NCBI GenBank assembly: GCA_024281095.1
Contig: JAMXLJ010000085.1
Span: 1 to 64,000 of the forward strand
DNA length: 64,000 nt
From: Acidimicrobiia bacterium
GTDB taxonomy: Bacteria > Actinomycetota > Acidimicrobiia > IMCC26256 > JAMXLJ01
Direction: 5' to 3'
Shown here: positions 34,411 to 52,475 of the stretch, in pieces
Numbering within the stretch: position 1 is the first letter of the stretch
How the letters are laid out: the number at the start of each line of letters is the position of its first letter
Translations under genes and position numbers: made by a program
Notes under the pieces: model-generated
Database searches by the model: none
Told to the model about the DNA's origin: nothing
Seen by the model: the letters and a program-made list of their open reading frames with translations, nothing else

Positions 34411-35157
34411 TCAGCGCGCGGCGCGCTTTCCCGTCGACTTGCGGGTCGTCGACTTGCGGGCGGTGGACTTCCGGGCGGTCGTCTTCCGGGCGGTGGACTT
34501 CCGGGCGGTCGTCTTGCGCACGCCGGTCCTCTTCGCACCCGTGCGCTTCGCCGCCGTCTTCCGGGCCGTCGTCTTCCGGGCCGTCGTCTTCTTCGCACCC
34601 GCCCGCTTGGCGGTGGACTTCCGGGCGGTCGTCTTGCGGCCCGTCGACTTGCGGCCCGTCGTCTTGCGGCCAGTCGTCTTGCGGACGCCCGTCTTCTTCG
34701 CACCCGTGCGCTTCGCCGTCGTCTTGCGAGCCGCCGTCTTGCGAGCCGTCGTCTTGCGGCCCGTGGTCTTCCGGCCAGTCGTCTTGCGGCCCGTCGTCTT
34801 CCGCGCGGTCGTCTTCTTCGCACCCGCCCGCTTCACGCCTGTCTTGCGAGCCGTCGTCTTGCGAGCGCCGGCCTTCTTGGCACCGGCTTTGCGCCCACCG
34901 GCCTTCTTCGCACCGGTGCGCTTCGTGCCGCCTCGTTTCGCGGTCTTGCGGCCCGAGGCCTTGCGTCCGGCGCGCTTCGCCCCGCCGCGACCACGCGATT
35001 CCTCTTCCCCGGGGGCCAACAACGGCAGCGGCGGCACGGGCAACGAACTCGCCATGCGGCCGACGCGTTCGCCGGCGGCCTCTGCGAGCTCACCGATCCG
35101 TTCCCCGAACTGTTCAATCCGACTGTCGCTGTTCTCCGATCCTTCGTCGGGTCGCAC
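34411..35157 (-). CDS. Histone H1-like Lys-rich repeat protein
   Basis: A 248-residue, extremely basic protein. Residues 1-50 form an acidic to neutral head (RIEQFGERIGELAEAAGERVGRM, a likely amphipathic helix). From about residue 56 to the end it is built of K/R-T-T/A-x-R/K pentads and KKT blocks, such as RKTTGRKTTGRK. The tail matches those of mycobacterial HupB and streptomycete HupS, yet no HU domain is present. It should bind DNA or RNA without specificity and compact it. GAGGAGG precedes the GTG start. An 18-bp palindrome lies upstream at 35193. Confidence 0.8.
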   Translation of the reverse strand: MRPDEGSENSDSRIEQFGERIGELAEAAGERVGRMASSLPVPPLPLLAPGEEESRGRGGAKRAGRKASGRKTAKRGGTKRTGAKKAGGRKAGAKKAGARKTTARKTGVKRAGAKKTTARKTTGRKTTGRKTTGRKTTARKTAARKTTAKRTGAKKTGVRKTTGRKTTGRKSTGRKTTARKSTAKRAGAKKTTARKTTARKTAAKRTGAKRTGVRKTTARKSTARKTTARKSTARKSTTRKSTGKRAAR

Positions 35158-35269: not shown

Positions 35270-35962
35270 TCAGAGATCGAGCGTCGCGCCGACAACCGCG
35301 GCGCGACGTATCGCCTTCGCCTTCGTACGCATCAACACATCGCGAGGAGCGCGGACGATCCAATCGGTGGCGCGCGCAACCTCCGCGCCGAGCTCTCCGA
35401 GCGGAACGACACTCGACACGAGGCCGAACCGCAGGGCTTCGGCGGCGTCGACGGGCCGACCGGTGAGACAGAGCTCCCGCGCCCGGGCACCGCCGATCGC
35501 ATCGTGGAGCGGGCCGTAGACGACGTCGCCGAAGGCGATCTCGGGGTGCGAGAAGCGAGCGGTGTCCGCGGCGATACGGATGTCGCACATGACCGCGAGG
35601 TCGAAACCGCCGGCCACGGCGGGCCCGTTCACGGCCGCGACGAGCGGGAGCGGGAACTCCAGGCACGCGCGATGGAACCGATCGCTCGACTGCCACAGGG
35701 TCGTCTCGAACGCCGGATCGGACGCCGCCCGATCGAACTCGCGCAGATCGAAGCCCGAGCAGAACGTCGACCCCGCCCCGGTGACCACCACCACCTTGAC
35801 CGCGTCGTCGCCGGAGAACGAGTCGAGCGCGCCGGAAAGTGCGTCCCGTACGTCTACCGAGAGCGCATTCCTCCGTTCGGGATCGTCGAGGACGATGCGC
35901 GCCACACCTTCCCGGGGAGGGTGGACAACGATGCCGTGCCGCGGCTCGGAAGGCTGGCTCAT
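35270..35962 (-). CDS. Enoyl-CoA hydratase/isomerase family protein
   Basis: A 230-residue crotonase-fold protein: ARIVLDDPERRNALS, TFCSGFDLREF (oxyanion-hole region), AAVNGPAVAGGFDLAVMCDIRIAA and ARFSHPEIAFG, where the Glu is the expected catalytic acid. The protein lacks the long C-terminal helix of some members. It should hydrate or isomerise an enoyl-CoA. Its ATG overlaps the stop of the MarR gene (ATGA), so the regulator and the enzyme are co-translated. Confidence 0.88.
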   Translation of the reverse strand: MSQPSEPRHGIVVHPPREGVARIVLDDPERRNALSVDVRDALSGALDSFSGDDAVKVVVVTGAGSTFCSGFDLREFDRAASDPAFETTLWQSSDRFHRACLEFPLPLVAAVNGPAVAGGFDLAVMCDIRIAADTARFSHPEIAFGDVVYGPLHDAIGGARARELCLTGRPVDAAEALRFGLVSSVVPLGELGAEVARATDWIVRAPRDVLMRTKAKAIRRAAVVGATLDL

Positions 35963-36429
35963 GCCCGGGACGCCGGCACCGGATCCACGACTTCACCATC
36001 GAGCACATGGCCGAGCGCCGTCCGGAGCATCGACACATCACGGTCGTCGAGATGCCGCGCGAAATGTTCGTAGACGCCACGGAGATGCACGCCACTTGCC
36101 TCGCGCAGGCGCTTGCGGCCCTCGGCGCTGATGACCGCGAACATGCCGCGGCGGTCGCCGGGGCACGGCTCGCGGCTGACCAGCCCGGCCTCCACCATGC
36201 GGTCGACGAGCCGGGTGAGGCCGCTGCGGCTGAACATGACGCGGCGGGCCAGCTCCTGCATACGGAGCCGGCCCTGCGTCGCCCCGTTCAGATTCACGAG
36301 CACGTCGTACCAGGCGAGCGGCAGATCCTGCGCTTGCACGAGCTCGGTCTCCAGCGCGTGCGTGACCGCGGCGTGGGCGCGAAGGAACTGCTCCCACACG
36401 GCAAGCCGCTCGTCGTCGACCCGTCCCAT
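35959..36429 (-). CDS. MarR-family transcriptional regulator
   Basis: A 156-residue winged-helix regulator. LAWYDVLVNLNGATQGRLRMQELARRVMFSRSGLTRLVDRMVEAGLVSREPCPGDRRGMFAVISAEGRKRL spans the DNA-binding domain, with the recognition helix around RSGLTRLVDRM and the wing at DRRGMF. The family forms dimers that respond to phenolic or aromatic ligands. It heads a two-gene unit with enoyl-CoA hydratase and is divergent from the pirin gene, so it may control both. Confidence 0.9.
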   Translation of the reverse strand: MGRVDDERLAVWEQFLRAHAAVTHALETELVQAQDLPLAWYDVLVNLNGATQGRLRMQELARRVMFSRSGLTRLVDRMVEAGLVSREPCPGDRRGMFAVISAEGRKRLREASGVHLRGVYEHFARHLDDRDVSMLRTALGHVLDGEVVDPVPASRA

Positions 36430-36548
36430 CGGGTCGATCGTAACTGCGGTTCCGGCATCGCCTCCGGGCCGCAGCAGATCCGCCGTACCGCGAGTCGTTC
36501 CTGTCGTCCATGATGCACCCGGCGCGGCTCGACCACTGGAGGACGGCG

Positions 36549-37283
36549 ATGGCGACACCGGCAGACGCAGACGCAGACACGACAGTCGACGTGCGTCGCG
36601 CCGCCGACCGCTTCCATACGGCTCTCGGGTGGCTCGACTCCTGGCACTCGTTCAGCTTCGGCGGCCACTACGACCCGGCCAACACGGGACACGGGTTGTT
36701 GCTCGTGAGCAACGACGACACCGTGGCACCGGGCGCGGGGTTCAGCGCCCACTCACATCGCGACATGGAGATCGTCACGTGGGTGCTCGAAGGAGAGCTC
36801 GAGCACGCGGACAGCGCCGGCAATCACGGAGTCATCCGGCCCGGATTGGCACAGCGAATGAGCGCGGGCCGGGGGATCACGCACTCCGAGATGAACGCCA
36901 GTGGCGACGCACCCGTGCATTTCGTTCAGATGTGGGTGCTTCCCGACGTGCGCGGCATCGAACCGGGCTACGAGCAACGCGACGTCGGCGACGCGCTCAC
37001 CGAGCCCCGCCTCGTCGCCGTTGCATCCGGGCGTGGACACGACGGCGCCGTCGCCATACACCAGCACGACGCCGTGCTGTGGGTTGCCCGCCTCGGTGCT
37101 GGGGACTCGGTGACCACTCCCGATGCGACTCACGTGCACGTCTTCCTTGCCCGTGGAAACGCGCGGATGGACCGTGCGGGTGAGCTGTCGACGGGCGACG
37201 CCGTTCGTCTCACGCGCGCAGGTGCGCTCACACTCGTCGCCGGCGACGACGGTGCGGAAGCGCTGGTATGGGAGATGGCCTAG
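36549..37283 (+). CDS. Pirin family protein (bicupin)
   Basis: A 244-residue bicupin. The N-terminal cupin has HSFSFGGHYDP, FSAHSHRDMEIVTWVLEGELEHADS and RMSAGRGITHSEMN, giving the four metal ligands (three His and one Glu) of pirins. The C-terminal cupin is degenerate, as usual. Bacterial pirins act as quercetin dioxygenases or redox-linked partners. CTGGAGGACGGCG precedes the ATG at 36549; an earlier ATG at 36510 is less likely. It is divergent from the MarR gene. Confidence 0.88.
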   Translation: MATPADADADTTVDVRRAADRFHTALGWLDSWHSFSFGGHYDPANTGHGLLLVSNDDTVAPGAGFSAHSHRDMEIVTWVLEGELEHADSAGNHGVIRPGLAQRMSAGRGITHSEMNASGDAPVHFVQMWVLPDVRGIEPGYEQRDVGDALTEPRLVAVASGRGHDGAVAIHQHDAVLWVARLGAGDSVTTPDATHVHVFLARGNARMDRAGELSTGDAVRLTRAGALTLVAGDDGAEALVWEMA

Positions 37284-38138: not shown

Positions 38139-38795
38139 ATGGCGACCGAGACGAGCCCGAACGTGATGGTCGACGGGCGCAACGCCCGCGCGACCCGAAC
38201 GCGGCATGCGGTCGTCGCCGCGCTGCTGGCGCTCATCGAGGAGGGCGACCTTCGTCCCACGGCGCGGCGCGTCGCCGCGCGCGCCGGCGTGTCGCTCCGG
38301 TCGGTGTACGTGCACTTCGACGATCTCGAGGACCTGTTCCGGTCCGCGGCCGAGCAGGAGTTCGAGAAGATCGCGCAGCTGGTGCAGCCGCTGCCCACGA
38401 CGGGTCCGCTCGAGTCGCGCCTCGACGCCTTCGTCGACCAGCGCGCCCGCGTGCTCGAGGCCGGCGCCGCGGTACGACGGGCAGCCGTCGTGCAGGCGCC
38501 GTTCTCGCCCACGCTCGCACGCGTGATCGACATGGCCCGCCGGGCGGGCCGGCTCGAGATCGAGCGGGTGTTCGACACCGAGCTGCGCGAGCGCAGCGAC
38601 GCGGCGCGTCGCGAGCTGCTCGCGGCCCTCGGCACGATCGGGAGCGCCTCGACCTGGGACAGCCTGCGCATGGTCGAGGGGCTCGACGTGACGCAGGCCC
38701 GTCACCTCCTGCGCCGGATGCTGCACGCACTGCTCGACCGGCCCGGCGAGACCCGCGCGGTGGGTCGCGACGCAGCAGGCGGGCAGCAGACCTAG
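38139..38795 (+). CDS. TetR-family transcriptional regulator
   Basis: A 218-residue TetR-type protein. The N-terminal helix-turn-helix runs over RTRHAVVAALLALIEEGDLRPTARRVAARAGVSLRSVYVHFDDLEDLF (about residues 21-68), and the ligand domain is helical, with a YVHF-type helix-4 motif. It lies 49 bp before the LivH-LivM fusion on the same strand and may control that importer. It is the only TetR protein in the window, so it is also a candidate, not more, for the TGACR-N4-YGTCA sites, although none lies near it. Confidence 0.9.
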   Translation: MATETSPNVMVDGRNARATRTRHAVVAALLALIEEGDLRPTARRVAARAGVSLRSVYVHFDDLEDLFRSAAEQEFEKIAQLVQPLPTTGPLESRLDAFVDQRARVLEAGAAVRRAAVVQAPFSPTLARVIDMARRAGRLEIERVFDTELRERSDAARRELLAALGTIGSASTWDSLRMVEGLDVTQARHLLRRMLHALLDRPGETRAVGRDAAGGQQT

Positions 38796-38844: not shown

Positions 38845-40989
38845 ATGACGGGGGGAAGAGCAACCATCGCGGGTGTCGTCCGGCTGCTCCGCACGTCCGA
38901 CGCGGGGCGAGCCGCCGCGTTCCTCGTCATGCCTGTCGTCGCCCTCGTGCTCCGGCAGGCATGGGCCGTCCCGTGGGGCGTCGTGGTGCAGGGACTCGTG
39001 ATCGGCGGCCTGACGTCGCTCGTCGCGCTCGGCGTCGCGCTCGTGTACCGAGCGAACCGCATCGTGAACTTCGCGCAGGGCGATCTCGGCGCGGTGCCGG
39101 CCACGCTCGGGGTGTTGCTGGTCATGGCGACCGGCCTGCCGTACCTGCTCGGGTTCGCCGTGGGTCTCGCGGCGGCTGTCGTGCTCGGCGTGCTCGTGGA
39201 AACCCTCGTGATACGCCGGTTCTTCCACGCGCCCCGTTTGATCCTCACGGTGGCGACGATCGGCATCGCGCAGATTCTCGCGGGATGCGGGTTGCTCCTC
39301 CCCCGGTTGTTCAGCAGCTCCGCGATCGGGCCGCGGCTCGAGGCGCCCTTCACATGGTCGTTCACCGTCTCGCCGATCCGTTTCGACGCGAACGACGTGC
39401 TGACGCTCATGGTGGTCCCCGCGACGTTCCTCGCCCTCGCGCTGTTCCTGCGACGCTCGAGCATCGGCATCGCGATCCGCGCCGCGGCCGAGCGCGCCGA
39501 CCGCGCCTCGACGCTGGGCATCCCCGTGCGGCGACTCCACACGATCGTGTGGGTCGTCGCGACGGTGCTCGCGTTCGTCGCGATGTTCCTGCGAGCCGGC
39601 GTGATCGGGCCGCAGATCGGCAGCGTGCTCGGCCCCGGGATCCTGTTGCGGACGCTCGCCGCCGCAGTTGTCGGCCGGATGGAGCGCTGCCCCACCATCG
39701 CGGCGGCCGCGCTCGGCCTCGGCGTGATCGAACAGGACATTTTCTGGCACTGGCACCAGGCCGCGTACATCGACCCTGCGCTGTTCGTGATCATCCTCGT
39801 GTCGTTGTTGCTCATCGGACGGCCACGAACGACGACGCGCTTCGACGCCGATGCCACGTCCACCTGGCAGGCCGCGCGCGAGGTGCGCCCGGTGCCGCGG
39901 GAGCTCGCGCACCTGCCGGAGGTCCGGTTCGTGCGGTGGGGCTTCGGCGCCGCGCTGATCGTGTTCCTCGTGTCGTTGCCCGGCTGGCTCGACGAGAGCC
40001 GGGTCAACCTCGCGGCGGCGATCGTCATCTTCGGCATCATCGGCCTGTCGCTCGTCGTGCTCACCGGCTGGGCCGGACAGGTCAGCCTCGGGCAAATGGC
40101 CCTCGTCGGCGGGGGGGCGGCGGTGGGCGGCGCGGTGACATCGCGCCTCGGATGGGATCTCTCCCTCGCGCTGCTCGTCGCCGGCCTCGCCGGTGCCGCT
40201 ATCGCGGTCGTGATCGGCTTTCCCGCGATCCGGCGCGGAGGTCTCACGCTTGCCGTGATGACGCTGGCCTTCGCGCTGGCTGCGTCGTCGTACTTCCTGA
40301 ACCGACAATTCTTCCGAGGGTGGCTGCCGGCCCTTCGCATCGACCGGCCCGCACTGTTCGGTGCCATCGACATCACGTCGGAGACCCGCTTCTACTACGT
40401 CACACTCGTATGTCTCGCGATCGCGCTCGCGATGGTGCGCGGCGTGCGGCGCAGCCGTACCGGGCGTGTGCTGATCGCCATCCGCGAGAACGAGCGCGCC
40501 GCGCGCGCGTACGGCGTGGACGCGACGCGCACGAAGTTGGCCGCCTTCGCGTTCTCGGGATTCCTCGCCGCCTTCGCGGGGGCGTTGTTCGTGCATCACC
40601 AAACCGGTCTCGGGACCGCGCCGTACTCGCCCGAGGAGAGCCTCGTCGTCTTCTCGATGGTGGTCATCGGCGGCCTCGGGTCGGTCCCGGGCGCGCTCCT
40701 GGGCGCCGCGTACGTTCGCGGCGTCGACTGGTTCGTGCCGTCCGATTACCGGTTCCTCGCTACCGGTGCGGGGTTGTTGCTCGTCTTGATGATCACGCCG
40801 GGCGGGCTCGGCGCGGTCCTCTACGACGTGCGGGACTGGTACCTACGAAAGGTCGCCGGCCGTCGGCGTGTCGTCGTGCCGAGCCTCGTCGCCGACGCCC
40901 GCACGCCCGAACCCGTCCCGGTTCCCGAGGCCGCGGTCGCGGAAGCCGGCGAGGCGGCGGACGCGGTCGTTCCCGGAACGTTCTCGTGA
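38845..40989 (+). CDS. Branched-chain-type ABC importer permease, LivH-LivM fusion
   Basis: A 714-residue membrane protein containing both permeases of a branched-chain amino-acid-type importer. Residues about 30-320 are LivH-like (QGLVIGGLTSLVALGVALVYRANRIVNFAQGDLG). Residues about 365-640 are LivM-like (GWAGQVSLGQMALVGGGAAVGG at about 408, and ENERAARAYGVDATRTKLAAFAFSGFLAAFAGALF). The tail (670-714) is Ala/Glu/Val-rich and soluble. The two permeases are normally separate proteins. GGAAGGACGG precedes the ATG. The stop overlaps the GTG of the next gene (GTGA). Confidence 0.92.
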   Translation: MTGGRATIAGVVRLLRTSDAGRAAAFLVMPVVALVLRQAWAVPWGVVVQGLVIGGLTSLVALGVALVYRANRIVNFAQGDLGAVPATLGVLLVMATGLPYLLGFAVGLAAAVVLGVLVETLVIRRFFHAPRLILTVATIGIAQILAGCGLLLPRLFSSSAIGPRLEAPFTWSFTVSPIRFDANDVLTLMVVPATFLALALFLRRSSIGIAIRAAAERADRASTLGIPVRRLHTIVWVVATVLAFVAMFLRAGVIGPQIGSVLGPGILLRTLAAAVVGRMERCPTIAAAALGLGVIEQDIFWHWHQAAYIDPALFVIILVSLLLIGRPRTTTRFDADATSTWQAAREVRPVPRELAHLPEVRFVRWGFGAALIVFLVSLPGWLDESRVNLAAAIVIFGIIGLSLVVLTGWAGQVSLGQMALVGGGAAVGGAVTSRLGWDLSLALLVAGLAGAAIAVVIGFPAIRRGGLTLAVMTLAFALAASSYFLNRQFFRGWLPALRIDRPALFGAIDITSETRFYYVTLVCLAIALAMVRGVRRSRTGRVLIAIRENERAARAYGVDATRTKLAAFAFSGFLAAFAGALFVHHQTGLGTAPYSPEESLVVFSMVVIGGLGSVPGALLGAAYVRGVDWFVPSDYRFLATGAGLLLVLMITPGGLGAVLYDVRDWYLRKVAGRRRVVVPSLVADARTPEPVPVPEAAVAEAGEAADAVVPGTFS

Positions 40990-43988
40990 CCTTCATCCGG
41001 CGCTGGTTCCGCGAGCTCGGCGGCGGTGCGTCACTGTTCCCGTTGTTCGTGCTGTTCGGGCTCACCGCGGTCGAGCAGTTCGACCAACGGGCATTCGACG
41101 TCTTGTTGCCGAACATCCGCGATCACTTCGGCCTCGACACGCAGGCCATCCTCGCGGTCGTGGGGCTCACGGGCGCCGCCGCACTCGTGATCGCGGTGCC
41201 GATCGGCTTCTACGCCGACCGCGCCTCGAGGGTTCGCATCGCGACTTTCGGCGCGCTCGCATGGGGCGTGTTCTCGGTGCTGACCGGGCTCGCGCCCGCG
41301 TTGTGGGTCCTCGCTCTGGCCCGGGCCGGCTCGGGTCTCGGTGGCGCAACCATCGTCCCGACCCACAACTCGCTGCTATCCGACTACTACGACATCCCCG
41401 ATCGGGCGAACATCTACGCCGCACACCGGGCCGCCTACGCCGTGGGCGCGTGCGTCGGGCCGTTGTTCGCGGGCCTGCTCGCGTACTCGTTCGGATGGCG
41501 CACGCCGTTCATCGTGTACGCGATCCCGACGCTGGTGTTCGTCGTGCTCGCGCTTCGGCTCCGCGAGCCGGGGCGTGGTCATTTCGAGCGCGCCGCGATG
41601 GGTGCGAGCGAAGATGTGCAAGGCACCGAGGACGTCCCGCCGTCCATCGCGGAGTCGTGGCGGATCGTGTGGAGCGTCGGCACGTTGCGCCGCGTCTTCT
41701 ACGCGCTGCCGTTCCTCGCGGTCGCATTCCTGGGCCTGGTCAGCCTGTCGTCGCTGTACTACTCCGAGGTCTTCCATCTCGACGCGCGCACGCGCGGCTA
41801 CATCGCGGCCGCCGTCGAACCGGGACAGCTCGTCGGTCTGTTCGCCGGCATCCCGATCGCGACCCGCCTCCTCGCACGCGACGCGGCACTGGTGCTGCGG
41901 TTCCTCGCGCTCGTCGCGGTCGTCGTAGCCGTCGCGTGGATCGGCTTCGCCCTGAGCCCGTGGCTGCCGCTCGCGATCACGATGAACGTCATCGTGTCGT
42001 CGGTCGTCGTGATCCTGATCCCCGGCATCTTCGCGGTGCTGTCGCTGGCGATCCCGCCCAAGATCCGCTCGTTCGGGTTCTCCGTGGCCGGTTTGTGGAT
42101 CCTGCCGGGCTTGCTGCTCCTGCCGATCATCGGCGGCGCGGCCGACTCGTGGGGAATCCGCCCGGGGCTCATGCTCATGGTGCCGGTGTTCCTCATCGGC
42201 GCGCTGATCATCGCCTCGGCCGGCAGCGAGGTGAACGCGGACATCCGCCGGGTGTGGGCCGCGGCCGCGGCCCAGGCCGAGGTGTTGTACGAGCGGCGGC
42301 AGGGCCGGGTGAAGCTCCTCCTCGTGCGGAGCGTCGACGTGCACTACGACGGCGTGCAGGTGCTCTTCGGCGTCGACTTCGAGATCGACGAGGGCGAGAT
42401 CGTCGCGCTGCTCGGCACGAACGGTGCCGGAAAGTCGACGCTGCTGAAGGCGATCTCCGGTCTGGTGCAGGCGAGTGGCGGCGCGATCGTCTTCGACGGC
42501 CGCGACATGACGCACACGCCTCCCGACGAGATCGCGAGACGCGGTGTCACGCAGGTGCCCGGTGGACAGGGCGTGTTCCCGTCGCTCACCGTCGCCGAGA
42601 ACCTGCACCTCGCCGGATGGCTTCGCCGCCGGGACCCGGAGTACCTGCGCGCGTCGACGGAGCGCGTCCTCGAGATCTTCCCCGTGCTGCGCGAGCGGCT
42701 CGACGACGTCGCCGGCAACTTGTCGGGCGGTCAGCAACAGATGTTGACGCTCGGGATGGCGTTCATCGAACGACCGCGGCTGCTGATGATCGACGAGCTC
42801 TCACTGGGCCTCGCACCGACCGTGGTCGAGCAGCTGCTGACGATCGTGCGCGACCTGCGCGAGCGTGGCACGACCATCATCCTCGTCGAACAGTCCGTCA
42901 ACGTCGCCCTCACGGTGGCCGAGACCGCGTACTTCATGGAGAAGGGCGAGATCCGCTTCCACGGCCCGACCGCGGAGCTGCTCGAACGGCCCGACGTGCT
43001 GCGATCCGTGTTTCTCGAGGGGGCGGCCTCGGTCGCGAACGGCGAGTCGGGCGCGTCGCCGCGTGTGCGTGTCCCGGCGACGCCGGCCGCACCGGCGCGG
43101 GCGCCGGCTCCGGAGCGCGACCACGACGGTCGACGTGACGGCGCTGCCGCCCGGCACGACGTGCGCATGCAGGTGCGCGACGTCACCAAGGCCTTCGGCG
43201 GTATCCACGCGCTCTCCTCGGTCAGCTTCGACGTGCAGGCCGGCGAGCTGCTCGGGTTCATCGGGCCCAACGGAGCGGGCAAGACGACCCTCTTCGACGT
43301 GATCTCGGGGTTCCTCGACCCGGACACGGGCAGCATCCTGGTGTCACACGCGGGCGAGACGCGTGACATCAGCCGCCGCTCACCGCAATACCGGGCCCGC
43401 CACGGCTTGGGCCGGTCGTTCCAGGACGGACGGCTGTTCCCCGCCCTGACGGTCGCCGAGACGATCGCGGTCGCGCTCGAGACCCACGTCGAGGTGCGCG
43501 ACCCCGTGGCGGCCGCGTTGAACCTTCCCGCGGTCGTCGACTCCGAGCACGCCGTCGCCACGCGGGTGGAAGAGCTCATCGAGCTCATGGGCCTCGGCGC
43601 ATTCCGCGACAAGTTCGTGCGTGAGCTGTCGACAGGGAGCCGTCGCATCGTCGATCTCGCGTGCGTCGTCGCGCACGGCCCCTCGGTGCTGTTGCTCGAC
43701 GAGCCGTCGTCGGGCATCGCGCAGCGCGAAGCCGAGGCGCTCGGCCCGTTGCTCCTGCGCATCCGTGACGCGCTCGGCACGAGCCTGCTCGTGATCGAGC
43801 ACGACCTGCCGCTGCTGTCGTCGATCGCGGACCGCATGATCGCCCTCGACCTCGGCGAGGTGATCGCCGCGGGGCCGCCGGCCGAGGTCGTGCACGAGCC
43901 GCGCGTGGTCGCGTCGTATCTCGGCACCATGGAGGCCGCGGTCGCGCGCTCGGGAGCCCGTCCGACGTCATCGACACCAGAGGACTGA
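40986..43988 (+). CDS. Triple fusion: MFS transporter - LivF-like ATPase - LivG-like ATPase
   Basis: A single 1000-residue open frame with three parts. Residues 1 to about 415 are a 12-helix major facilitator module (LLPNIRDHFGL, IGFYADRASRVR as the loop 2-3 signature). Residues about 437-680 are a LivF-type ATPase: Walker A GTNGAGKST at 477, signature LSGGQQQ at 579, Walker B LLMIDE near 600. After a Pro/Ala linker (about 690-725), residues 728-980 are a LivG-type ATPase: Walker A GPNGAGKTT at 760, a changed signature LSTGSRR, Walker B VLLLDEPSSG. No stop or frame break separates them. GTGA links it to the permease fusion. Confidence 0.92.
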   Translation: MTFIRRWFRELGGGASLFPLFVLFGLTAVEQFDQRAFDVLLPNIRDHFGLDTQAILAVVGLTGAAALVIAVPIGFYADRASRVRIATFGALAWGVFSVLTGLAPALWVLALARAGSGLGGATIVPTHNSLLSDYYDIPDRANIYAAHRAAYAVGACVGPLFAGLLAYSFGWRTPFIVYAIPTLVFVVLALRLREPGRGHFERAAMGASEDVQGTEDVPPSIAESWRIVWSVGTLRRVFYALPFLAVAFLGLVSLSSLYYSEVFHLDARTRGYIAAAVEPGQLVGLFAGIPIATRLLARDAALVLRFLALVAVVVAVAWIGFALSPWLPLAITMNVIVSSVVVILIPGIFAVLSLAIPPKIRSFGFSVAGLWILPGLLLLPIIGGAADSWGIRPGLMLMVPVFLIGALIIASAGSEVNADIRRVWAAAAAQAEVLYERRQGRVKLLLVRSVDVHYDGVQVLFGVDFEIDEGEIVALLGTNGAGKSTLLKAISGLVQASGGAIVFDGRDMTHTPPDEIARRGVTQVPGGQGVFPSLTVAENLHLAGWLRRRDPEYLRASTERVLEIFPVLRERLDDVAGNLSGGQQQMLTLGMAFIERPRLLMIDELSLGLAPTVVEQLLTIVRDLRERGTTIILVEQSVNVALTVAETAYFMEKGEIRFHGPTAELLERPDVLRSVFLEGAASVANGESGASPRVRVPATPAAPARAPAPERDHDGRRDGAAARHDVRMQVRDVTKAFGGIHALSSVSFDVQAGELLGFIGPNGAGKTTLFDVISGFLDPDTGSILVSHAGETRDISRRSPQYRARHGLGRSFQDGRLFPALTVAETIAVALETHVEVRDPVAAALNLPAVVDSEHAVATRVEELIELMGLGAFRDKFVRELSTGSRRIVDLACVVAHGPSVLLLDEPSSGIAQREAEALGPLLLRIRDALGTSLLVIEHDLPLLSSIADRMIALDLGEVIAAGPPAEVVHEPRVVASYLGTMEAAVARSGARPTSSTPED

Positions 43989-43989
43989 C

Positions 43990-45669
43990 ATGCAACCGAC
44001 TCATCTCCCCCGGCGTCCCGGCAACCTTCGGCGCTACGGGCCGATCATCGGCGTGCTCCTCGTCGTGGCGATCGTCGCGGTGATCGTCGCGGCTACGAGC
44101 GGCGGCGGCGGCGACAACGGCAAGAAGACCGCGGTGTCGTCCGGCACCGTCGGCACGCCGCCGACTGTGTTCAGCCGCAGCGCCAAGATCGACTGGGGCC
44201 CCAACTGCGACACCCGCACGGGCCGGGTCGCGATCCCGTCGATCTACGCACCGCCGTGCGTCGCTCCGTTCCACGGCGACAACGGCGGCGCGACGTCGCC
44301 GGGCGTCACCGCCGACTCCATCACGGTCGCGCTCTACGTGACCCAGAACGACCCGCTGCAGCAGGCATTCGCCGCGAGCGCGGGCGCGAACGTGACGCCG
44401 GAGACGAACGCGGACCAGGTCATCGATTACGCCAAGATCTACGCCGCGCACTTCGAGCTCTACGGGCGCAAGGTCAACATCGTGAAGTACCACGCGAACG
44501 GCGGTCCGAGTGACGAGACCGCGGCCAAGGCGGACGCGATCAAGATCGCCACCGACATCAAGCCGTTCGCCGTCTTCGGCGGTCCGCTGCAGACCAGCGC
44601 GTTCGCCGACGAGCTGACGGCACGCAAGATCCTGTGCATCGGCGTGTGCGCGGGCACGTTCCCCGAGAGCTTCACCCGGCCGCGTGAGCCGTACATTTGG
44701 CAGACCGGCCCGGTCACGAGCCAGTCGACGGCACTTGCGGCCGAGCTCATCGGCAAGCAGCTCGCGGGCAAACCCGCGAACCACGGGGGCAATGACGTGA
44801 AGGACAAGCCCCGGGTCTTCGGTGTCCTCCACTACGACACGCCCGACGGCCAGTACGCGTCCATGTTCACGAGCTTCCAGAATGCGCTGGCGAAGTACAA
44901 GGTGAAGGTGGCGAGCGACGTGGCGTACCCGCTCGACCTCACCCGCGCCGCGGAGCTCGCCCGCACCGCGATCGCGAAGCTCAAGAGCGCCGGGGTGACG
45001 AGCGTGATCATCAACGGCGACCCGATCATGCCCGCGTACTTCACGAAGGAGGCCACCCGGCAGGGCTGGTTCCCGGAGTGGATCATCGGGCCAACCCTGT
45101 TCGTCGACACGACGGTCTTCGGCCGCACGTACGACCAACAGCAGTGGGCGCACGCGTTCGGCGTGTCGTACGTTCCGGCGCGCGGCGTACAGGTGACGCA
45201 GGACGCGTACAACCTCTACGTGTGGCAGTACGGCCACAAGCCTCCGAGCAACATCTACTCCGTCACGAACTTCGACCCCTCGCTCTTCTCCATCGGCGTG
45301 CACCTCGCAGGGCCGATCCTCACGCCCGAGACGTTCCAGGCCGGCCTCTTCCGCTACCCCGTGACCGGCGGCGGCCCGACCACGCCGACGATCTCGCGCG
45401 GACAGCACGACATCTGGCCGGGTGTCGACTACGGCGGCATCGACGACGCGACCGCGGTGTGGTGGAACGCCGACGCGACAGGTACCGACGAGATCGGCAA
45501 CAACGGCAAGGGCCTCTACGAGTACGTCAACGAGGGCAAGCGGTACCGGCCGGGTCAGTTCCCGACCGGCGACGGGTTTTTCAGCCCGGCCACGTCGGTG
45601 ACGATCTTCCAGGACCTGCCGCCGTCGGACCGGCCGCCCTCGTACCCACCGCCGCCGCGGCCGGCATGA
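43990..45669 (+). CDS. Membrane-anchored substrate-binding protein of the Liv-type importer
   Basis: A 559-residue binding protein of the periplasmic type-1 fold, starting 1 bp after the triple-fusion stop. One helix (about 17-37) anchors it, with no lipobox Cys. A Ser/Gly linker follows, then DWGPNCDTRTGRVAIP with a Cys that may pair with the Cys of APPCVAPF, and GVTADSITVALYVTQNDPLQQAF, which begins the ligand-binding fold. It is longer than usual LivJ proteins because of extra C-terminal segments. It should deliver ligand to the LivH-LivM fusion. Ligand identity is unknown. Confidence 0.87.
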   Translation: MQPTHLPRRPGNLRRYGPIIGVLLVVAIVAVIVAATSGGGGDNGKKTAVSSGTVGTPPTVFSRSAKIDWGPNCDTRTGRVAIPSIYAPPCVAPFHGDNGGATSPGVTADSITVALYVTQNDPLQQAFAASAGANVTPETNADQVIDYAKIYAAHFELYGRKVNIVKYHANGGPSDETAAKADAIKIATDIKPFAVFGGPLQTSAFADELTARKILCIGVCAGTFPESFTRPREPYIWQTGPVTSQSTALAAELIGKQLAGKPANHGGNDVKDKPRVFGVLHYDTPDGQYASMFTSFQNALAKYKVKVASDVAYPLDLTRAAELARTAIAKLKSAGVTSVIINGDPIMPAYFTKEATRQGWFPEWIIGPTLFVDTTVFGRTYDQQQWAHAFGVSYVPARGVQVTQDAYNLYVWQYGHKPPSNIYSVTNFDPSLFSIGVHLAGPILTPETFQAGLFRYPVTGGGPTTPTISRGQHDIWPGVDYGGIDDATAVWWNADATGTDEIGNNGKGLYEYVNEGKRYRPGQFPTGDGFFSPATSVTIFQDLPPSDRPPSYPPPPRPA

Positions 45670-45708
45670 TCGGGGGACCCGCGGTCGCGTCCTCTACGGT
45701 TGTCGCCC

Positions 45709-47388
45709 ATGCTGCCGAGCGCGCCGGAACGACGTCCGCAACGCCCCCTGCTGCGCCGGTATGCACCGATCCTCGCCGTCGTCGTGGTGGTGGCGATCGT
45801 CGCGGTCGTGCTCAGCACGCGGGGTGGAGGCGGCGGCAAGACGAACATCACGACGAAGCCACTCGCCAACGGCGAGCCGCCGCTGTTCCAGGCCCATACG
45901 AAGACCGACTGGGGCCCGAACTGCGACACACGCACCGGCCGGGTCGCGGTGCCACTGCTCTACGCGCCGCCGTGCGTCCCGTTGTTCAGCGGTGACAACG
46001 GAGGCGCGACGGCGCCGGGCGTCACCCCCGACACGATCACGGTCGCGGTGTACGAGACCCAACCCGACCCGCTGCAGCAGGCGTTCTTCGAGCAGAGCCG
46101 CGCCGACGAGGACGTGAAGAAGGAGGAGGCCACCCAGCAGGCCTACGTCGACTTCTTCCAGTCGCACTACGAGACCTACGGCCGCAAAGTGAAGCTCGTG
46201 TTCGTCAAAGCGAGCGGCGGCGACGGCGACGACAACGCGGCGAAGGCCGACGCCATCAAGGTCGCGACGCAGATCCACGCGTTCGCTTCGTTCGGCGGTC
46301 CCGCGATGACGTCGGCGTACGCCGACGAGCTCGCCGCCCGGCATGTGTTGTGCCTGGCCGACTGCCTGCTCGCGCAGCCTCAGAACTTCGTCGACACCCG
46401 CGCGCCGTATCTCTGGCCGACCGAGCCGTCGTTCGAGCAGGACGGCGTGCACTGGGCCGAGTTCATCTCCAAGGAGCTCGCCGGCCGCAACGCCGATCAC
46501 GCGGGCGACCCGGCGTTGCAGTCGAAGCCCCGCCGGTTCGGCGTGCTGCGCTACGACGACGGTCAGGGCACGTTCGCGAGCACGGTGAAGAACGTCGAGG
46601 ACCGCCTCCACGCCGACAAGGTCCCGATCAGCGCGGACGTGTCGTACGCGTTCGACCTGAACCGCGCGGCCGAGGAGGCGCGCACGGTGATCGCGCAGCT
46701 CAAGGCGGCGAACATCTCGAGCGTGCTGCTCGCCGCCGACCCTGTGATGCCGACGTTCTTCACCGCGGAGGCCACGAAGCAGAACTACTTCCCCGAATGG
46801 ATCGTGCTCGGCACGGTCTTCACCGACACGACGCTGTTCGGCCGCAACTACGACCAGAAGCAGTGGGCCCACGCGTTCGGGGTGTCGTTCGTACCCGTGC
46901 GCGGCGTCACCGGCACCGACGACCTCGCCAACATCCTCACCTGGCAGACGGGCAAGCCGCCGCCCGCGAAGACGTACAAGCTGCTGGTGCAGGCGCCGCT
47001 CATCCTGTTCACCGGCGTGCACCTGGCCGGGCCGCACCTGACGCCGGAAACGTTCCGCGACGGGATGTTCCGCTACACGCCGGCACCGACCGGGCCCGCG
47101 CACGTGCACTTCTCGTGGGGCCACCACGGCATCTGGCCCACGACCGACTACTTCGGCAGCGACGACGCCGCGCTGATCTGGTGGGATCCGAACGCGTCGG
47201 GCCCGGACGAGCTCGGCTATGTCGACAAGGGCATGTATCAGTACTCACACATGGGCCAGCGGTATCTGCCCGGGCAGTGGCCGGCCGGCAACGCGGACGT
47301 GTTCAACCCCGCGACCTCTGTCACCGTGTTCAACACGTTGCCCGCGGCGGACGTCCCACCGTCGTACCCCGCGCCACCACACCCCTGA
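45709..47388 (+). CDS. Second membrane-anchored substrate-binding protein
   Basis: A 559-residue paralogue of the previous protein, with the same plan: basic N-terminus, one anchoring helix (about 20-38), Gly-rich linker, the shared DWGPNCDTRTGRVA block, YAPPCVPLFSGDNGGAT, and ITVAVYETQPDPLQQAF. The ligand-facing parts differ more than the frame, so the two may bring different ligands to one transporter. I used the ATG at 45709; a TTG at 45700 is in frame. It lies 39 bp after its paralogue and closes the operon. Confidence 0.87.
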   Translation: MLPSAPERRPQRPLLRRYAPILAVVVVVAIVAVVLSTRGGGGGKTNITTKPLANGEPPLFQAHTKTDWGPNCDTRTGRVAVPLLYAPPCVPLFSGDNGGATAPGVTPDTITVAVYETQPDPLQQAFFEQSRADEDVKKEEATQQAYVDFFQSHYETYGRKVKLVFVKASGGDGDDNAAKADAIKVATQIHAFASFGGPAMTSAYADELAARHVLCLADCLLAQPQNFVDTRAPYLWPTEPSFEQDGVHWAEFISKELAGRNADHAGDPALQSKPRRFGVLRYDDGQGTFASTVKNVEDRLHADKVPISADVSYAFDLNRAAEEARTVIAQLKAANISSVLLAADPVMPTFFTAEATKQNYFPEWIVLGTVFTDTTLFGRNYDQKQWAHAFGVSFVPVRGVTGTDDLANILTWQTGKPPPAKTYKLLVQAPLILFTGVHLAGPHLTPETFRDGMFRYTPAPTGPAHVHFSWGHHGIWPTTDYFGSDDAALIWWDPNASGPDELGYVDKGMYQYSHMGQRYLPGQWPAGNADVFNPATSVTVFNTLPAADVPPSYPAPPHP

Positions 47389-47461: not shown

Positions 47462-48145
47462 TCAGCCGTTCTCGACGCGGGGCAGCGCGGTGCCGTCGGC
47501 GTCGACGGGGACCCACCCTTCCCCGAGCACATAGCGGCGGATCACGCGGGCCGGATTGCCCACCGCGACGCTGAAGTCGGGCAGCTCCCCGGTGACCACT
47601 GCGCCCGCGCCCACGACGACGTGACGGCCGACGCGCGCACCCGGCAACACGAGCGCGCCGTGGCCGAGCCACGAACCGGAGCCGATGTGCACCGGACGCG
47701 GTGCGGAGAATTGCTTTCCGATCGGCGTGTGCACGTCCTCGTATCCGTGGTTCGCGTCGGTGACGTAGACGTGGTGTCCCGTCCACACGTCGTCGCCGAT
47801 CACGATCTCGCGGTGGCCGACGATGCCGCTCCCCTTGCCGATGACGGTGCGGTCGCCGATCTCGATCACCGGGTTGCGATCGGGCACGTGCCCGGGCGCG
47901 ACGCCCGCGGACAGGCTCGAGTAGGGGCCGATCATGCAGCCCGCGCCGATGTGGATGTACTGCTCACCGAACAGCGCGGCGACGGGAAAGCAGATCGCGC
48001 TGCCCGGCCCGAGCCGGCCGAAGCGCCGTCCCCGCCGGCTGCGCGGGCCGATCGCGCCGAGCCGCACGGCCTGGTCCCACAGCCGGCGGATCGCCTCGCC
48101 GGCCGCGAGGCGCAATGGATCGAGTGCGCGGTCCGCATCTGCCAT
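47462..48145 (-). CDS. Hexapeptide-repeat acyltransferase (left-handed beta-helix)
   Basis: A 227-residue protein with hexapeptide repeats: HIGAGCMIGPYSSLSAGV, VIEIGDRTVIGKGSGIVGHREIVIGDDVWTGHHVYVTDANHGYED and HIGSGSWLGHGALVLPGARVGRHVVVGAGAVV. The DANH segment holds the usual catalytic His of O-acetyltransferases. It trimerises and transfers acyl groups to sugars or other small molecules. I took the ATG at 48145; the longer frame upstream overlaps a small membrane-protein gene. The TGA follows NPARVIRRYVLGEGWVPVDADG. Confidence 0.87.
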   Translation of the reverse strand: MADADRALDPLRLAAGEAIRRLWDQAVRLGAIGPRSRRGRRFGRLGPGSAICFPVAALFGEQYIHIGAGCMIGPYSSLSAGVAPGHVPDRNPVIEIGDRTVIGKGSGIVGHREIVIGDDVWTGHHVYVTDANHGYEDVHTPIGKQFSAPRPVHIGSGSWLGHGALVLPGARVGRHVVVGAGAVVTGELPDFSVAVGNPARVIRRYVLGEGWVPVDADGTALPRVENG

Positions 48146-48204
48146 CCGACGGACAGTAACGCCCTCCGGCTGCAGCCCGCCGGACGCGGATCCCCCGCGC
48201 CGGA

Positions 48205-48411
48205 CTACTGGCGCCGGCGCCGGCCGTCCGACAGCGACGCCCGAGCGCGGCGCAACACGACGAAGGCCACCGCCGCGGAACCGAGCACGACGCCGAGCAC
48301 CAGCGCGGTGAGGATGTTCGGCCACCCGGGATCCATCGGCTCCTCGGCCCGGCGGACGGCGAACACGGCCGCGGCGAAGATCGTTGCTCCGAACAGGGAG
48401 ACGGGCCCCAC
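48205..48411 (-). CDS. Small membrane protein of unknown function
   Basis: A 68-residue frame with two likely membrane helices (about 5-19 and 33-54) and a basic end (RRARASLSDGRRRRQ). The start is GTG with a weak ribosome site. It lies 59 bp before the acyltransferase on the same strand. I do not recognise a family; the hydrophobic pattern is the main reason to call it real. Confidence 0.5.
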   Translation of the reverse strand: MGPVSLFGATIFAAAVFAVRRAEEPMDPGWPNILTALVLGVVLGSAAVAFVVLRRARASLSDGRRRRQ

Positions 48412-51422: not shown

Positions 51423-52475
51423 ATGCAGCGCGCGCCGCACCCCATCCTCATCGGGTTCCTGTTCGACTTTCCGCAGGCCGACGGGGGGACGAGCTTCGAG
51501 GAAGCGGTCCGTCTCGGGTTCGACTCGATCGGTGAGGCGCGCATCGACCGTCCGGTCGAGTTCGTGCACCGTCACGTGCCCGGCCTGCCGCTCGGTACGG
51601 AACTGGCGGTGCAGCAGGGCTTCCGCGAGCTCGACGAGGCGGGCGTCCTCGCGATCCTCGGCCCGTCGATCTCCGACAACGGCCTGATTGCCGCACCGCT
51701 CGCCGACGAAGCCGGGATCGCGTGCATCAACTACACCGGCGGTGAACGCACGCGCAGCGAGTGGATGTACCACTACCAGATCGGGTCGTTGGAGGAGGAG
51801 CCCGCGATCCTCGCGGCGCGGCTGCACCAGCGGGGCCTCGAGCGCGCCGCGGTGATCTTCGACAACTCACCCGTGGGGCGTCGTTACGCCGAGTGCTTCG
51901 ACGACGCCCGCGCGGCCCTCGGCATCGAAGTGACCGGGACCAGCGCGATCTCGCCATTGTCGGAGGACGTCACCGCGGTCGCCGCACGCCTCCGCGACAC
52001 CGACCCGGCCGCGCTCGTGTACTTCGGGCTCGGGGTCGCATCGCGGGCGGTCGCGCTCGCGCTGCAGGAACTGGACTGGAACGTGCCCGTCGTCGCGAAC
52101 TCGTCACTCATGTTCGGATACGCGCGCCCCGACTGGCGTGACGGCTGGAAGGGTTGGGAGTACATCGACGGCATCGCCGACGACAACCGGATGCGTGCCG
52201 CGCTCGCCGAGCAGTCGAAGCGGGCCGCGGCCGGGCCGGTCGGGTGTGGGGCGTACGACATGGGCCGTCTACTCGCCGAGGGCATCGCCCGTGCCCATCA
52301 CCTCACGCGCGCCGGCGTCAAGGAAGGCCTCGAACGGGTGAAACAGCTTCCGGCAACGAGCGGCGTCGAGGGCACGACCATGGGCTTCGGCAACTACGAC
52401 CATGCTGCGCTGAAGGGGCGCTACCTCGTGCTGCGCGAGTGGCGCGACGGCCGCACCGTACAGGTCGCCGAATAG
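51423..52475 (+). CDS. Type-1 periplasmic-binding-fold protein without signal peptide
   Basis: A 350-residue protein of the Peripla_BP_6/LivJ-type fold: PILIGFLFDFPQ, VQQGFRELDEAGVLAILGPSISDNGLIAAPLADEAGIACINYTG, LERAAVIFDNSPVGRRYAECF and CGAYDMGRLLAEGIARA. Unlike the two binding proteins of the importer, it has no signal sequence, and an in-frame stop five codons before the ATG rules out a longer start. It is thus probably cytoplasmic, perhaps a ligand sensor or carrier. No transporter genes lie beside it. Confidence 0.85.
   Translation: MQRAPHPILIGFLFDFPQADGGTSFEEAVRLGFDSIGEARIDRPVEFVHRHVPGLPLGTELAVQQGFRELDEAGVLAILGPSISDNGLIAAPLADEAGIACINYTGGERTRSEWMYHYQIGSLEEEPAILAARLHQRGLERAAVIFDNSPVGRRYAECFDDARAALGIEVTGTSAISPLSEDVTAVAARLRDTDPAALVYFGLGVASRAVALALQELDWNVPVVANSSLMFGYARPDWRDGWKGWEYIDGIADDNRMRAALAEQSKRAAAGPVGCGAYDMGRLLAEGIARAHHLTRAGVKEGLERVKQLPATSGVEGTTMGFGNYDHAALKGRYLVLREWRDGRTVQVAE

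Follow-up and report, generated by a model that had tools for sequence, protein, structure and literature searches.

Transporters are assigned to separate classes according to whether they are primary (ATP-driven) or secondary (gradient-driven). The described systems most like the locus analyzed here are the HAAT/Liv ABC importers for branched-chain amino acids (LivJHMGF) and the urea transporter UrtABCDE. The locus lies in a 64,000-nucleotide stretch of DNA (the window) that belongs to a 4.39 Mb assembly of 177 contigs, 98% complete. It shares with these importers the BPD_transp_2 permease family, ATPases of the LivF (1ji0) and LivG (MJ1267, 1g6h) families, and binding proteins of the Peripla_BP_6 family. 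Unlike in LivJHMGF and UrtABCDE, the permeases are fused, the ATPases are fused, a module of the major facilitator superfamily (MFS) precedes LivF, and there are two large anchored binding proteins (Table 1).

An initial annotation, made from the letters of the window, had described LivH and LivM as one 714-residue protein, coupled by a GTGA overlap to a gene for an uninterrupted 1000-residue MFS-LivF-LivG chain. Both frames, their coordinates and the overlap were exactly as described. The permease domains matched PF02653 in two stretches (6.4e-51). The 1000-residue frame contains no internal stops, and its product matched MFS_1 at 129 bits (cut-off 33.4), ABC_tran twice (8.6e-59), and the LivG-specific tail BCA_ABC_TP_C at 28.2 bits (cut-off 25.5). 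The Walker A, signature and Walker B motifs of both ATPases are intact and conserved; those of LivF are GTNGAGKST, LSGGQQQM and MIDEL, and its H-loop position is Gln (EQS), as in other LivF proteins. The second ATPase had been thought to carry a changed signature, LSTGSRR. It is not an anomaly, because LSTG[ST]RR is normal in both fused and unfused relatives and LSxG is kept; the sequence in an ordinary LivG is LAYGDQRR.

With two permease domains, LivF and LivG motifs, and a type I binding protein encoded alongside them, the system falls within the HAAT/Liv family (TC 3.A.1.4). Because two Peripla_BP_6 genes lie directly 3' of the fusion, the operon comprises a complete importer plus the MFS module. 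We rejected an assignment to the urea transporter UrtABCDE. The permease equivalogs were far below cut-off (UrtB, 82 vs 250; UrtC, 81 vs 296), UrtD fell just short (301.7 vs 304.1), and UrtE passed (304.5 vs 285.8) only when the whole protein, with its two ATPase stretches, was scored.

Table 1. Features of the operon and its immediate 5' neighbor, in window positions.
Feature	Position	Strand	Evidence or remark
TetR-type regulator	38139..38795	+	Pfam TetR_N 3.3e-06; just 5' of operon
LivH-LivM permease fusion, 714 aa	38845..40989	+	ORF and translation; two BPD_transp_2 stretches
GTGA stop/start overlap, LivH-LivM and MFS genes	40986..40989	+	translational coupling
MFS-LivF-LivG fusion, 1000 aa (P0001)	40986..43988	+	MFS_1, two ABC_tran, BCA_ABC_TP_C
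MFS carrier module, residues 1-430, Spns/ACS-like	40986..42275	+	MFS_1 2.1e-37; HnSpns 6e8j
MFS cytoplasmic loop 6-7	41559..41699	+	bears E223, R226, R236
MFS-LivF joint AEVLYERRQGR, short, length-conserved	42276..42308	+	8-18 aa in 41 loci
LivF-type ATPase domain	42309..43025	+	motifs; T. maritima 1ji0, E 2.1e-60
LivF-LivG linker, flexible, Pro/Ala-rich	43026..43160	+	17-82 aa across relatives
LivG-type ATPase domain, LSTGSRR signature	43161..43937	+	MJ1267 1g6h, E 7.6e-28
Substrate-binding protein 1, N-terminal membrane anchor	43990..45669	+	Peripla_BP_6 5.4e-09
Substrate-binding protein 2	45700..47388	+	Peripla_BP_6 3.8e-08

Judged from its position only, the TetR-type protein is a possible regulator of the operon. 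Further 5', a MarR regulator gene (35962-36558, minus strand) and a pirin-family gene (36510-37283, plus strand) have overlapping 5' ends in a head-to-head arrangement, and positions 34411-35157 (minus strand) encode a 248-residue, histone H1-like protein with long lysine-rich repeats of the RKTTARKTTGRK type. At a related locus (L042), a neighboring protein matches Pfam HC2. On the 3' side, a third Peripla_BP_6 protein (51423-52475, plus strand; 350 residues; 1.7e-21) has no visible signal peptide or anchor; it may be an AmiC-like sensor of ligand in the cytoplasm.

A hexapeptide-repeat acyltransferase gene (47462-48325, minus strand) adjoins the binding-protein genes. Homologues of it lie beside 14 of the 41 MFS-LivF-LivG systems, 4 of 6 MFS-less systems and none of the MFS-LivF systems. 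We considered whether the acyltransferase forms part of a detoxification valve with the MFS module, and dropped this idea because the gene is equally present beside systems without the module.

We searched Actinomycetota genomes for homologues. Strong matches were present in 52 of 61 near genomes. At the level of the class, the MFS module was found in 63 of 198 genomes (E ≤ 1e-25), and in an even draw across the phylum in 20 of 396 (E ≤ 1e-20). A search of viral contigs found none. The initial annotation had proposed looking for the same MFS-ABC-ABC order elsewhere; it occurs at 41 loci, the window included, as [LivH-LivM] + [MFS-LivF-LivG]. A two-domain [MFS-LivF] chain occurs at 25-26 loci, mostly with [LivH-LivM-LivG]; one copy is in the window's own genome (L060, G000:C122), which also has an ordinary Liv set of separate genes (L081, G000:C162). 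We also found [LivH-LivM] + [MFS-LivF] + [LivG], an MFS-less [LivH-LivM-LivF-LivG], and one locus (L058, 2671-7857) at which all five modules, LivH-LivM-MFS-LivF-LivG, form a single open frame of 1729 residues without N. The LivH-LivM fusion itself is present in relatives. The fused MFS module is always immediately N-terminal to LivF. In a class-level group of three species (genomes G210, G224 and G238) the MFS-LivF fusion is unusually expanded, with 4-7 matches each; nearly all of the 17 matches span the MFS-LivF junction, with no internal stops. A scan of named organisms with the full alignment returned mostly generic ATPase patterns, and the only named fused loci that it yielded were L082 and L083. 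The two metagenome-assembled genomes that carry them are labeled Actinomycetota and Acidimicrobiales, which places the family.

Because many genomes share this uninterrupted frame, several of them single-contig assemblies (G016, G059, G141 and G200), chance and assembly or frame error are excluded as the source of the fusion. There is thus no missed stop between the modules, one of two findings that would have counted against the fusion; the other, an MFS gene that is always separate in homologues, does not hold either. The lone apparent split between MFS and LivF (L242) was rejected, as a run of N interrupts the sequence there.

We built a tree of the importer core (LivH, LivM, LivF and LivG; 83 systems, 1105 columns). 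All MFS-bearing systems, together with their MFS-less [HMFG] and [FG] relatives, were separated from 13 ordinary Liv systems by a fully supported branch, which survived removal of two long rows. AU tests on quick trees with a small outgroup sample rejected both a single clade of MFS-bearing systems (p 3e-57) and a single clade of MFS-less relatives (p 2e-64). The simplest reading of the tree is that the module was gained once and lost at least four times (in L065; in L061; in L062; and in L063, L064, L066 and L079). Distances between MFS modules correlate with those between cores (Spearman 0.81 over 62 systems, a raw value that includes shared descent), in keeping with an integrated carrier. 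Divergence is faster among the MFS modules than among the ATPases. The fusion of an MFS module with this importer is old and conserved, in many uncultured actinobacteria.

At 45-62% identity, the binding proteins of the MFS-less group are nearer to those of the window than are the binding proteins of most MFS-bearing systems; substrate-binding protein 2 reaches the upper value with the binding protein of MFS-less L064. These importers probably act on a related ligand. Their existence, with such closely related binding proteins, indicates that the ABC part can do its work in the absence of the MFS module, which is therefore accessory. Two stand-alone MFS copies (L212 and L234) are placed within or next to the fused MFS clades, with no Liv genes in the approximately 12 kb examined, and were apparently released from a fusion. 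Given their position among or next to fused copies, the module can evidently stand alone.

The MFS module shows no sign of decay. In six close pairs its dN/dS (NG86) was 0.07-0.29, similar to LivH and LivG, which indicates purifying selection, and in one pair (L060/L074) it was the most conserved module measured, with 93% identity. The profile score above cut-off and a nearly invariant motif A Asp/Arg/Arg (D78 in 39, R79 in 40 and R82 in 41 of the 41 three-domain chains) place it in the MFS. Its nearest solved relative is the Spinster protein HnSpns (6e8j; E 1.4e-12). NCBIfam families for D-galactonate and aromatic acid transport match below cut-off, a weak pointer to anion:cation and aromatic-acid symporters.

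The initial annotation had suggested inspecting the pore residues for retention, and we mapped them on the residue roles described for HnSpns (PMC9440201). Retention was partial. Like Spinster, the three-domain chains keep the TM1 Asp (D41 in Spns; D33 in 38 of 41), the TM4 Arg (R122; R113 in 37 of 41) and the motif A charge relay, with its Asp (D133) in all 41. The position of Spns R42 is Q in the window. Unlike Spinster, the window has G120 in place of the TM4 proton-switch Glu (E129), and Glu is absent from the six commonest residues at this position in the 41 chains (R 18, K 6, G 5, D 4, Q 3, A 2). The periplasmic bridge between D60 (TM2) and R289 (TM7) is also absent, with T52 and E261 in the window and acidic or polar residues at the second position in most relatives. 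Because the Glu is replaced and the bridge is lost, Spns-like proton coupling cannot be assumed, and proton coupling is probably altered. By these comparisons the module is a carrier of Spns-like ancestry, and by test not a member of Spns.

The connection between the module and LivF is nearly fixed in length. The joint measures 8-18 residues in the 41 three-domain chains (median 12, SD 1.6) and 14-18 residues in 25 two-domain chains. The LivF-LivG linker varies from 17 to 82 residues (SD 15.8) and the LivM-LivF linker of MFS-less chains from 27 to 69; a longer one occurs in a single ordinary Liv system that does not belong to the clade. Two transporters of one pathway might have been joined merely for stoichiometric expression, without mechanical coupling. 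In 28 of the 36 relatives that we examined, the LivH-LivM gene could share with the MFS gene a 4-base NTGA overlap, a sign of tight translational coupling, and the MFS module always directly precedes LivF, both consistent with such an origin. However, the joint has kept its length over large divergence while the remaining linkers of these chains vary freely, and none of the 66-67 fused MFS-LivF loci examined is convincingly split. We consider this the least probable of the explanations.

Only three positions passed a comparison of three- with two-domain chains, in which we required at least 93% conservation in the former and less than 50% in the latter (cut-offs of our own choosing, and the two-domain chains are more divergent). 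These are E223 (40 of 41), R226 (41 of 41) and R236 (41 of 41), near-invariant only in MFS-LivF-LivG chains and all located in cytoplasmic loop 6-7. Binding of the cytoplasmic partner in LplT-Aas depends on the equivalent MFS loop, although the authors doubt direct contact (PMC11416262). AlphaFold models built from 3-4 sequences had pLDDT values of 45 and 49, too low to show docking. The best reading of the module is that of a transport-competent carrier docked on LivF.

The fixed joint would also suit an MFS module that transports nothing and serves as a membrane anchor or assembly scaffold, positioning the ATPases beside LivH-LivM. Through the joint the module is attached to LivF and, by way of LivF, to LivG; the Spns proton switch and bridge are lost; and the module has been lost where fusion of LivH-LivM to LivF-LivG itself provides a tether. 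On the other hand, flexible linkers suffice in the MFS-less relatives, so the ABC part needs no rigid anchor, and the module retains transport motifs (motif A, the TM1 Asp and the TM4 Arg) that are superfluous in a pure anchor. The detached proteins are also maintained. For the first two reasons we disfavor an anchor-only role, which the initial annotation had offered as one option, and think it unlikely; its description of a Liv-type importer made of two polypeptides, in which both ATPases are joined to an MFS carrier, stands, and the arrangement is kept in homologues.

Alternatively, LivF and LivG could drive the carrier, turning a secondary into a primary transporter, or lock it until ATP or ligand conditions are right. 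ATP-controlled transport has analogues in ArsA-ArsB and, for gating by an ABC protein, in SUR-Kir6.2; to our knowledge no such mechanism has been described for the MFS. The fixed joint fits this possibility, as do the loop 6-7 residues specific to three-domain chains and the replacement of the proton-switch Glu, mostly by Arg or Lys, a hint of altered proton drive. Yet the same ATPases already serve LivH-LivM, docking of ABC coupling helices is not known for MFS carriers, and stand-alone copies of the module exist. We regard control of this kind as distinctly unlikely. That the ATPases would energize or gate the module specifically through the fixed joint, one ATPase pair then serving two unrelated translocation pathways, is more doubtful again.

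The explanation that we prefer, with roughly even confidence, is that a transport-competent MFS carrier has become a permanent part of a HAAT/Liv-type ABC importer, held to LivF by a rigid joint. The binding proteins would hand ligand to LivH-LivM, and ATP hydrolysis by LivF and LivG would power its import. The MFS module would sit beside the permease with LivF beneath it, and the joint and the loop 6-7 contacts would hold both carriers in one complex, in which the state of the ATPases and that of the carrier probably influence each other. As a second, accessory carrier, the module would most likely transport an organic anion or lipophilic acid. It might take up the same ligand without ATP when the concentration is high, or it might let a product or counter-ion leave the cell. 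Against a working carrier count the faster divergence of the MFS modules, the loss of the Spns proton switch and bridge, and the Q at the R42 position; conservation of the fold and motif A could also have a structural role. As for the ligand, the binding protein had no sequence matches to solved structures. Genes for enoyl-CoA hydratases, acyl-CoA ligases and the hexapeptide acyltransferase in the neighborhood suggest, only loosely, acid or acyl metabolism.

The MFS-Liv fusion is apparently undescribed. We found no description of MFS-ABC fusions in the open-access literature, though examples, unnamed or listed, could exist in protein databases or TCDB; none of the NCBIfam matches listed was a model of the fusion. 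In these systems the two largest transporter superfamilies share one chain, conserved across several Actinomycetota classes, and uptake of nutrients through them seems to be common among these genomes. Nature provides variants in which the carrier is lost, released, or merged with everything else into one chain, so that control of an MFS carrier by an ABC ATPase is open to direct testing.

Several known systems share part of this arrangement. Spinster carriers, unlike the module described here, are not fused to ABC ATPases. The MFS lysophospholipid flippase LplT-Aas likewise joins an MFS carrier to a cytoplasmic enzyme, as a complex or in a single ORF (PMC11416262), but that enzyme is an acyltransferase instead of an ABC ATPase, and there is no second permease. 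The sensor kinase-MFS family (TC 2.A.1.34) is also a recognized class of MFS fusions (PMC3924187); its partner functions in signaling and is unrelated to ABC transport, unlike the ATPases joined to the MFS module in the window.
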